A stretch of DNA of 32,435 bases from the NCBI GenBank assembly GCA_947453155.1, contig CANGFE010000026.1, positions 1 to 32,435 on the forward strand, in the 5' to 3' direction. The stretch is from Beijerinckiaceae bacterium. GTDB taxonomy: Bacteria; Pseudomonadota; Alphaproteobacteria; Rhizobiales; Beijerinckiaceae. A program made the translations under genes and the position numbers. This document shows positions 8,890 to 11,672 of this stretch, in pieces; the stretch's first letter is position 1; each line of letters starts with the position of its first letter. The notes under the pieces are model-generated. The model searched no databases, had not been told where the DNA came from, and saw only the letters and a list, made by a program, of their open reading frames with translations.

Positions 8890-9687
8890 TCAGGCGTTCA
8901 AAATCCGCAGCGCTTCTTCATGCAAGCGCTTGTCGCCGGCCGCGATAATGGTGCCACCCGAGGCTGCGCTCTCACCTTGCCAATTGGTGATGATTCCGCC
9001 CGCCCCTTCAATGATCGGGATCAGCGCGACAATATCGTAAGGCTTCAAGCCGCTTTCGATGACGAGATCGATTTGTCCCGCGGCGACCATGCAATAGGCA
9101 TAGCAATCGCCGCCATAGCGTGACAGGCGCACTTGTTTTTCGACGCGCAAATAGGCATCGCGCGTGTCATCCGTCAAAAGCGAGGGATGTGTCGTCATGA
9201 GGGTTGCTTGCGAAAGCCTGTCGCAGGCACGCGTGCGCAAAGCGCGCTCTGTCATTTTTCCGTGTCGATCCAAGCCGCGCCACAGCGCACCTTGTCCATC
9301 GCCCGAAAAACGCTCGCGTGTGAACGGCTGGTGCATCATGCCATAGCAGGGGCGCCCTTGATGTTGCAGGCCAATCAACGAGCCCCAGACAGGCATGCCG
9401 GAGATGAAACTTTTTGTGCCGTCGATGGGATCGAGCACCCAGACATAATCGGCGGCTTCATTCTTGTTGCCGAATTCTTCGCCGATAATGCCATGCGCCG
9501 GAAAAGCATCTTCAATCATGCGGCGCATGATGATTTCTGCGGCTTTGTCAGCCTCGGTTACGGGATCGAAGGCGCCGCCACGGTTTTTGTCTTCCGTGCC
9601 CAGATGGGTGCGGAAGAAGGGCAGAATGGCGTCGCCCGAGGCTTGAGCCAGTTCATCGACGAAACGCGCAAAATCGACAGCGCCCAT
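8890..9687 (-). CDS. hisN: Histidinol-phosphatase, inositol monophosphatase family
   Basis: Predicted to remove phosphate from L-histidinol phosphate, the penultimate phosphate step of histidine synthesis in many alphaproteobacteria. The 265-residue protein carries the magnesium sites of the IMPase fold: GEEFG, WVLDPIDGTKSFISGMPVWG and the C-terminal GLKPYDIVALIPIIEGAGG. The FISGMPVW segment and YGGDCYAYCMVAAG favour the HisN subgroup over SuhB or CysQ. The start at 9687 matches the family N-terminus (MGAVDFARFVDEL) and has a purine-rich GGGG upstream. An ATG at 9885 would add 66 residues that do not look like protein and would run across the promoter of the sRNA gene, so it is rejected. Substrate assignment is by family. 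Confidence 0.85.
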   Translation of the reverse strand: MGAVDFARFVDELAQASGDAILPFFRTHLGTEDKNRGGAFDPVTEADKAAEIIMRRMIEDAFPAHGIIGEEFGNKNEAADYVWVLDPIDGTKSFISGMPVWGSLIGLQHQGRPCYGMMHQPFTRERFSGDGQGALWRGLDRHGKMTERALRTRACDRLSQATLMTTHPSLLTDDTRDAYLRVEKQVRLSRYGGDCYAYCMVAAGQIDLVIESGLKPYDIVALIPIIEGAGGIITNWQGESAASGGTIIAAGDKRLHEEALRILNA

Positions 9688-9862
9688 CAGAAAACCCCGT
9701 GTCCCTTCGAAAAAAAGTCGGTCGAGACATACAGGAGCCGCCCGCCCGAGGCGAGGGGCTTGCGGGCTTTTTGGATCCCCGCGACAAGTTCTATGAATTT
9801 CAGTGGTTTGTAACAAAAGTTGCGACAGGCTGCCGCAGAGCCATAAAAATAGGTCAGCATCA

Positions 9863-9891
9863 CTTGCTTTTTGTGCAGTGCACATCTATAT
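9863..9891 (+). promoter_or_regulatory. Promoter of the intergenic sRNA
   Basis: CTTGCT at 9863-9868 and CTATAT at 9886-9891 are separated by exactly 17 bases, close to the alphaproteobacterial housekeeping consensus CTTGAC-N17-CTATAT. Transcription would start near 9898, just before the first hairpin of the RNA. No protein-coding start follows on this strand. Confidence 0.7.
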
Positions 9892-9897
9892 TCTTTT

Positions 9898-9988
9898 CAT
9901 GCGACTGGCTATGCCGTCGCTAATGCCCTCCTTGGGCGTTTCCTCCCTAGACTTGGGCCGCTGGTGCAAACCGGCGGCCGTCTTTTTT
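9898..9988 (+). ncRNA. Trans-acting sRNA candidate, AbcR (alpha-r15)-like
   Basis: About 91 nt with three consecutive hairpins. Hairpin 1 is at 9901-9920 (GCGAC and GTCGC closing an inner GGC/GCC stem). Hairpin 2 is at 9925-9937 (GCCC-TCCTT-GGGC). Hairpin 3 is at 9956-9979 (GGCCGC and GCGGCC with inner GG/CC, loop TGCAAA) and is followed by TCTTTTTT, a factor-independent terminator. Two pyrimidine segments complementary to ribosome binding sites are exposed: TCCTT in the loop of hairpin 2, and TTTCCTCCCT at 9940-9948 between hairpins 2 and 3. This layout matches what is known of rhizobial AbcR RNAs, which repress solute-binding-protein mRNAs. The family name is an inference from architecture and remembered motifs. 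The T-run ends about 12 bases from the 3' end of the opposing amidohydrolase gene. Confidence 0.65.
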
Positions 9989-9999
9989 ATGGGGTGGTT

Positions 10000-10950
10000 T
10001 TACTCTGCCGCTAGAGCGATGCCGCGGTCGCGGTCCATCTCGGCGGCGACAGCCATCAGGCGGGAGGTGAGATCGGTGAGATCTCGCGCAATGGCTTCAA
10101 AGCTCGCTTTGCGCTCCAGCGACTGCTCATCCATGTAAAGCGCGCGATTGACTTCAATCTGCACGGCATGAAAGCCAGCACCCGGATTGCCGTAATGTTC
10201 GGTGATGAAACCGCCCGCATAAGGCTTGTTGCGCTGGACGTGATAGCCGCATTGGCGCAAGTGGCGCTCGATCACATCCATGAAGGGCGAGCCGCAGGCC
10301 GTGCCGTAGCGATCGCCTAAAACAAAATCAGCATCAATGCGTTCTTGTCTTTGCGTGCCCGCGCCAATCCATGAGGGCATGGAATGGCAATCAATCAAAA
10401 GCGCCAAGCCGAACTGGCGCTGCGCGCGGCGCAGAAGGGTGCGCAATTGCTGGTGCCAAGGCTTATACAGCGCTTCAATGCGCTGCATGGCCTCATCAAT
10501 AGAGAGTTTGCTCGCGTAAATATCCTGGCCTTCGCCCACCACGCGCGCAATCGTGCCGAGTCCGCCTGCCACGCGCACAGAGCGCGTATTGACGAAATGC
10601 GGCAGAGCGCCTTCAAACATGCGCGGATCAAGCTCGTAAGGCTCGCGATTGAGATCAAGAAAAGCGCGCGGAAAATGCGCTTTCAGCATCGGCACGCCAA
10701 GTGTGGCGGCCTCTGACCAGAGCGCATCGACATGGGCATCTTCTGAACGGCGCAGCAGATGCGGGTTGAGCCGCGAGGCCGCCAAAAAGCGCGCCGGATA
10801 GATCGTGCCCGAATGGGGCGAGGAAAGGACGAGCGGCGTCTCCAGCGAGGCCGGATCAAGCGTCTCGAACGGGGACGCGAGCTCAGGTTCCAGCGTCGCG
10901 GCGGGCGCATCTGGCAAGGCTGCTGATCCTGTCTGGGCTCGGCTCATCAT
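10000..10950 (-). CDS. N-formylglutamate amidohydrolase family protein
   Basis: Family members hydrolyse N-formyl-L-glutamate to formate and glutamate, the last step of one histidine-degradation route. The 316-residue protein shows the family's ordered motifs: LSSPHSGTIYPARFL, RRSEDAHVDALW, PRAFLDLNREPYELDPRMFE, a central LLIDCHSMPSW with likely metal ligands, and NKPYAGGFITEHYG. No other hut genes are present, so a degradative role is not supported by context. Two adjacent ATG codons (10950 and 10947) lie directly after AAAGAGG; 10947 has the better though short spacing, so the start is uncertain by one codon. A TTG at 10995 is less likely. It is divergent from cpdR. Confidence 0.88.
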   Translation of the reverse strand: MMSRAQTGSAALPDAPAATLEPELASPFETLDPASLETPLVLSSPHSGTIYPARFLAASRLNPHLLRRSEDAHVDALWSEAATLGVPMLKAHFPRAFLDLNREPYELDPRMFEGALPHFVNTRSVRVAGGLGTIARVVGEGQDIYASKLSIDEAMQRIEALYKPWHQQLRTLLRRAQRQFGLALLIDCHSMPSWIGAGTQRQERIDADFVLGDRYGTACGSPFMDVIERHLRQCGYHVQRNKPYAGGFITEHYGNPGAGFHAVQIEVNRALYMDEQSLERKASFEAIARDLTDLTSRLMAVAAEMDRDRGIALAAE

Positions 10951-11122
10951 CCTCTTTCGGGGCTCGGCGCAACATTTTCTGCCCCAATGTGCCAAGCTGG
11001 CACAGGTCTGTCCATTGCGGCCCTTTGCCCAGCGCGAAAACTTCAGCGGGGGCGGTTTGTTTTCACGCCTTCTTTACGTTCATCGGTGCTTATGGAGGGC
11101 AAGAGTTCTGCGTGAGGCCAAT

Positions 11123-11597: not shown

Positions 11598-11672
11598 GGG
11601 CTCGTAGCTCAGCGGGAGAGCACTACCTTGACATGGTAGGGGTCACAGGTTCGATCCCTGTCGGGCCCACCA
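11598..11672 (+). tRNA. tRNA-Val (anticodon GAC)
   Basis: A 75-nt cloverleaf can be drawn by eye. The acceptor stem is GGGCTCG / CGGGCCC with one G-T pair. The D arm is GCTC-AGCGGGA-GAGC. The anticodon stem CTACC / GGTAG encloses TTGACAT, giving anticodon GAC. The T arm is ACAGG-TTCGATC-CCTGT. The encoded ACC plus A at the 3' end completes the CCA tail. It stands alone between cpdR and a solute-binding protein and has its own terminator. Confidence 0.97.

Follow-up and report, generated by a model that had tools for sequence, protein, structure and literature searches.

An alpha-r8 (MmgR-type) small-RNA gene with a candidate PhaR operator in its promoter, next to a formylglutamate amidohydrolase gene of a Beijerinckiaceae bacterium

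The small-RNA gene and the conservation of its structure

The window, meaning the whole analysed stretch of 32,435 nucleotides from a Beijerinckiaceae bacterium (contig CANGFE010000026.1), contained a small-RNA (sRNA) gene between a gene of the inositol monophosphatase (IMPase) family and an N-formylglutamate amidohydrolase (FGase) gene (Table 1). FGase is described as the usual neighbour of alpha-R8 RNAs (PMC12559287). A tRNA gene (RF00005, 66.2 bits) was located further downstream at 11598-11669 (+).

Table 1. Positions of the sRNA gene, its elements and its neighbours in the window
Feature	Position	Strand	Basis
IMPase family gene (PF00459), neighbour	8890..9687	-	domain match
Putative promoter: -35-like TTGCTT (9864-9869), 17-base spacer, -10-like TATATT (9887-9892)	9864..9892	+	direct reading of the sequence; layout kept in relatives
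Candidate PhaR/AniA-type operator TGTGCAGTGCACA, filling the -35/-10 spacer	9872..9884	.	perfect dyad; resembles S. meliloti sites
MmgR/alpha-r8 sRNA, about 89 nt	9900..9988	+	RF00519 match and fold; 5' end inferred from the -10
Hairpin 1	9901..9920	+	changes on both sides in 6/7 main-helix pairs
Hairpin 2, loop TCCTT at 9929-9933	9922..9940	+	fold; nearly invariant in 65 copies
Anti-Shine-Dalgarno decamer TTTCCTCCCT	9939..9948	+	invariant in 65 aligned copies
Intrinsic terminator: stem 9956-9979, U-tract TCTTTTTT 9981-9988	9956..9988	+	fold, pattern scan, covariation
FGase gene (PF05013), neighbour	10000..10995	-	domain match; start approximate

The fold of 9895-9992 had an energy of -45.8 kcal/mol (z -5.95), and none of 200 shuffled sequences was as stable. 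The terminator was also detected by a pattern scan, with 10 pairs of which 8 were G-C. A sequence-only reading of this DNA had described a complete gene for a trans-acting type of sRNA with anti-Shine-Dalgarno segments, three hairpins and a U-rich terminator, and this description was borne out by direct reading, the fold and the RF00519 match described below. Its promoter with 17-base spacing stood in part: the layout could be read directly and was kept in relatives, but a consensus scan, which used the E. coli consensus, showed 0 promoters at the sRNA gene because TTGCTT matches the E. coli -35 at only 3 of 6 positions. The call of this putative promoter rests on its place and its conservation.

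To follow the structure in relatives, 80 distinct copies scoring at least 58 bits were collected; the 65 copies from the genus of the window were aligned together with 32 bases upstream, while the remaining 15, which came from other genera, were not included. The structure tested consisted of the pairs read from the window's own fold. In the 65 copies, 90.0% of the cells were paired, compared with 81.4% in shuffles and 34.7-61.8% when the partners were slid. Cells changed on both sides numbered 147 against 47.6 in shuffles, and the covariation score was 0.302 against 0.151; neither value was reached by any of 500 shuffles. The number of pairs with a double change (10 versus 9.2 in shuffles, reached by 187/500) and the number of further pair types (36 versus 32.3, reached by 19/500) were not decisive. 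Double changes occurred in six of the seven pairs of hairpin 1 (80.8% of cells paired) and in 3/10 pairs of the terminator stem, in its outer part (95.5% of cells paired). Hairpin 2 was nearly invariant and therefore gave no covariation evidence. RNAalifold recovered parts of all three stems, with 13 pairs, 8 of which had double changes. The check for covariation in relatives thus favoured the stems that had been proposed, with covariation in hairpin 1 and the outer terminator stem, and at the level of sequence a real sRNA gene was confirmed at 9900-9988 (+).

Assignment to the alpha-r8 family

At the gathering threshold, an Rfam search of the whole window gave two matches, the tRNA and RF00519 (suhB/MmgR, alpha-r8). 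The latter scored 69.4 bits, above its cut-off of 41, at 9918-9994 and covered model positions 1-77 of 77. The match began inside the 3' arm of hairpin 1, which was the sole structural point worth noting. A search of 9700-10200 at a lax threshold yielded four further matches, each under its family cut-off. Overlapping matches of the same clan are otherwise reduced to the best one, and the ar15 model (RF02345) was run alone because this filtering might have hidden it. In the window's own genome (a metagenome-type assembly, 83.6% complete) it gave 0 matches at E 0.001, with no control genome reaching the ar15 cut-off. In 41 genomes, own included, it gave one sub-threshold match, again with no relative reaching the cut-off. 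Since no control matched, these searches show that the window does not fit ar15 well, not that the organism is without AbcR.

Three features that mark an alpha-r8 RNA were found, namely a model score above the cut-off, the decamer after hairpin 2 and the FGase neighbour. The feature of MmgR proper, a PhaR/AniA dyad between -35 and -10, was also present by its sequence. The sequence-only reading had assigned the gene to AbcR/alpha-r15, which would make it a repressor of transporter and solute-binding-protein mRNAs. The plan of three stem-loops and two CU-rich anti-Shine-Dalgarno motifs speaks for this and was present in the window, but it is not specific to AbcR. The alpha-r15 RNAs are described as having this plan and partial homology to RF00519, and a three-stem MmgR had already been described (PMC7143759), which makes a mix-up of AbcR and MmgR understandable. 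The AbcR locus of S. meliloti adjoins lsrB (PMC7143759); lsrB was absent beside the window gene, whose neighbours were the IMPase and FGase genes. The Rfam covariance check put RF00519, not alpha-r15, at the top, and with a full RF00519 match and no good ar15 match, although the ar15 search had no positive control, the AbcR assignment was not supported by the family models and was rejected. We regard it as very improbable.

The window sRNA is, as judged from its sequence, another member of alpha-r8/MmgR, a known family of carbon-storage regulators. MmgR of Sinorhizobium meliloti likewise matches RF00519 and has three stem-loops, an anti-Shine-Dalgarno motif and a PhaR/AniA dyad between -35 and -10; it is 77 nt long, compared with the inferred 89 nt or so here, and exists in one copy, whereas the own genome has five matches. 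SisA-D of Caulobacter crescentus (alpha-R8) are similar in having several siblings per genome, a common decamer and an FGase-linked copy. No common motif of the sisA-D promoters is reported in the available text of PMC12559287, whereas the operator was found in 2/5 own copies; the lack of a common motif is compatible with one sibling bearing the operator. The string "phar" had 0 occurrences in this SisA/CrfA paper. In contrast to the SisA-D system, no CrfA-like sponge perfectly complementary to the decamer was found here: perfect AGGGAGGAAA was confined in the own genome to the strands opposite two sRNA genes, which counts against the explanation preferred below, and a shorter or imperfect sponge is possible. 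AbcR1/AbcR2 (alpha-r15, RF02345) have three stem-loops and two anti-Shine-Dalgarno motifs in common with the window sRNA, but differ in the family model (RF02345 unmatched here, with no positive control), in their neighbours and in the PhaR-type operator present here.

The candidate operator and its distribution among siblings

The spacer dyad looks like a binding site of PhaR, a repressor that responds to the storage polymer PHB. The heptamer TTGTGCA, reportedly named at the mmgR promoter in a 2018 study, was present in the window. The motif TGTGCRNYGCACA matched once in the window against 0.01 expected. A perfect operator occurred at 2 sites of the own assembly (83.6% complete), in the window and at G000:C21:19742-19754, upstream of tandem phasin genes. 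With one mismatch or fewer, the own genome contained 29 forward matches versus 15 for the reversed control, so the one-mismatch sites are partly background. A phaP2 site of S. meliloti reads TTTTTGTGCAGTGCACATAGA (PMC12542648), and the window reads TTTTTGTGCAGTGCACATCTA, with 3 of 21 bases different. In S. meliloti, the mmgR promoter was shifted by PhaR (PMC12542648), and a review places the mmgR dyad within the -35/-10 region, with AniA as repressor and NtrC as activator (PMC8401924).

The own genome had five RF00519 matches (69.4, 66.4, 56.6, 36.9 and 33.6 bits). The two highest-scoring copies carried the operator at position -44 relative to the model start; the other three carried none, which counts against the explanation preferred below. 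The copy of 66.4 bits (G000:C93:3755-3831) closely resembled the window sRNA, with the operator TGTGCGCCGCAAA at the same distance as in the window and neither FGase nor IMPase adjoining. Across 61 genomes, RF00519 matched in 54 and exceeded its cut-off in 49. The following counts refer to the best 136 of at least 150 matches; 14 copies of 33 bits or less were left out, and three of these were examined and had no motif. The motif YGCRNYGCR was found at -75..-8 in 68 of the 135 copies whose upstream sequence was 150 bases or longer, compared with 11 at -150..-83, and the reversed motif was found 5 times near the promoter and 4 times farther upstream. The strict form TGCRNYGCA occurred in 51 copies near the promoter versus 5 farther (reversed, 0 and 1). 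The motif was absent near the promoter in the other 67 copies, which also counts against the preferred explanation. Its presence by score was 52/72 at 60 bits or more, 12/36 at 41-60 bits and 4/27 below 41 bits. A copy with the operator at -60..-15 was present in 47 of 52 genomes, the copies taken from G015, G021, G047, G050 and G058 having none, and 33/37 multi-copy genomes held both operator-bearing and operator-free copies. Two motifs were found in 21 copies, 20 of them spaced 20-22 bp and one an overlapping pair 5 bp apart. The 20-22 bp spacing may suggest cooperative binding of PhaR on one face of the DNA.

Among 34 loci with long flanks, some reaching contig ends, an FGase gene was present in 25, and one operator-bearing copy was found in 24 of these 25. 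Exactly one copy bore the operator in 9/10 tandem pairs of the long-flank loci, and neither did in the G021 pair. Of nine such loci without an FGase match, some of them truncated at contig ends, six had an operator copy. A scan of species genomes for the core complement together with the operator gave at least 118 stretches, which bear the operator by construction and so give no operator frequency; an FGase-like gene was found in 62 of the 118 stretches listed. The IMPase most similar to that of the window among these 118 was 63% identical and came from a record titled 'Rhizobiales bacterium 65-9', which points to no more than the order. In 17 Caulobacteraceae records, picked by name among the matches listed, the operator lay 54-59 bases before the core in 15, and an FGase gene was present in 10. 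Three records titled Clostridia, Solirubrobacterales and Cyclobacteriaceae (L049, L064 and L110) held this alphaproteobacterial sRNA and were probably mis-binned contigs. The split into operator-bearing and operator-free siblings and the frequent pairing of operators 20-22 bp apart are mildly new, as is the apparent operator at FGase-linked alpha-r8 copies of Caulobacteraceae. A literature search that did not cover the main alpha-r8 papers found nothing on the sibling split or on paired operators.

Two divergent classes were also observed. The first, comprising G000:C5:9591-9664 (L005) and L224, L226, L229, L237, L239, L243 and L247, was alpha-r8-like, with a 5' extension GGATAGCC... and CTCCCCAGGGCTACTCCTCCC in common; the PhaR-type operator was absent in most members, with a loose match at -38 in G025_C221. 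In the second, weakly RF00519-like class (L315, L316, L241, L248 and L251), found in several order-level genomes, TTTGACGCCTCCCTG replaced the decamer, and L315 and L316 were without the operator.

PHB genes, targets and the proposed role

The genes phaR, phaC and hfq were each present in the own genome, together with two phasin matches above the cut-off and one below. Loose operator matches, one or more per locus, lay within 260 bases before the start in 26 of 33 phasin loci (30 from relatives, 3 own), a count without shuffled control and with starts set by a rule that was wrong for several loci; these operators were often two, about 30 bp apart. In 20 order-level genomes, RF00519 exceeded its cut-off in 11/14 with phaR and in 0/6 without (Fisher p 0.002, uncorrected for phylogeny). 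Within the genus no link to phaR was found, an operator copy being present in 22/27 genomes where phaR was found and in 4/4 where it was not, some assemblies being incomplete; this counts against the preferred explanation.

The duplex of the sRNA core with the own phasin leader had an energy of -11.9 kcal/mol, and 38/500 mononucleotide shuffles were as good. It was better than the pairing with 7 of 9 window genes, galE and tctC being better, although one or more of the nine starts used may be wrong. This pairing was thus not distinctive, which counts against the preferred explanation. The strongest duplex among those tried was with the own phaR leader (-16.2), but GGGAGG recurred in only 2 of 23 valid leaders (from 30 loci, 5 of them without a start codon and 2 without leader sequence), and phaR mRNA was rejected as a feedback target. 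Our pairing tests gave phasin mRNA no further support as a target and argued against phaR mRNA.

We consider it quite probable that the gene encodes an alpha-r8 (MmgR, RF00519) sRNA at its usual FGase locus that is controlled by PhaR, is switched on along with phasin genes and restrains the building of granules. Occupation of the spacer dyad by PhaR (AniA) would hold the promoter closed. The formation of PHB granules would draw PhaR away, and the sRNA gene would be released at the same time as the phasin genes with the same operator, a step proposed because of the identity of the operator and the published binding in S. meliloti. The sRNA, probably with Hfq, would then cover ribosome-binding sites with TTTCCTCCCT, so that phasin and other mRNAs would be damped. 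This second step is proposed because of the family: in an mmgR mutant of S. meliloti the PhaP1 and PhaP2 proteins were up with their mRNA unchanged (PMC8401924), and repression by SisA works through base pairing in which the conserved seed takes part (PMC12559287). PhaR repression, Hfq dependence and target repression would thus be expected here by analogy with S. meliloti and Caulobacter.

An alpha-r8 RNA whose operator is idle, or on which PhaR has a minor effect, with main targets other than PHB genes as for SisA, appears unlikely. The mRNAs repressed by SisA form a broad set, SisA itself is nearly constitutive and a TonB-dependent receptor is among its tested targets (PMC12559287), and the phasin pairing was not distinctive; against this, the position of the operator is kept in relatives, and the sole other perfect copy in the own genome lies upstream of phasin genes. 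That there is no gene at all, the hairpins and terminator being untranscribed leftovers of the neighbouring genes, draws on the consensus scan without a promoter. It is scarcely credible given the decamer invariant in 65 copies, the covariation of hairpin 1 and the conserved operator position.

With the PhaR-controlled alpha-r8 sRNA as the preferred reading, the locus would belong to carbon storage rather than nutrient uptake, and the spacer operator could serve as a simple sequence mark for an alpha-r8 sibling that is likely coupled to PHB. In a wider proposal, whose chances we regard as evenly balanced, the FGase-linked alpha-r8 RNA is the ancestral PhaR output across Alphaproteobacteria, including the sisA-like copies of Caulobacteraceae (e.g. 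Caulobacter segnis, L077), and duplicates have lost the operator. Siblings without the operator would then mean that one anti-Shine-Dalgarno seed is run by both PHB-coupled and uncoupled genes. Should the operator prove functional in Caulobacter, PHB sensing would be linked to the SisA/CrfA feast-famine switch, which was described recently.

An RF00519-like element of 34.4 bits, below the cut-off, was also observed in a relative (L255/L246, G018:C336:490-564, minus strand). It contained TTTCCTCCC and lay immediately 3' of a phasin stop codon, likely as the phasin 3' UTR and terminator, and no second clear element of this kind was seen in L254-L283. It may represent an alpha-r8-like RNA derived from the phasin mRNA.
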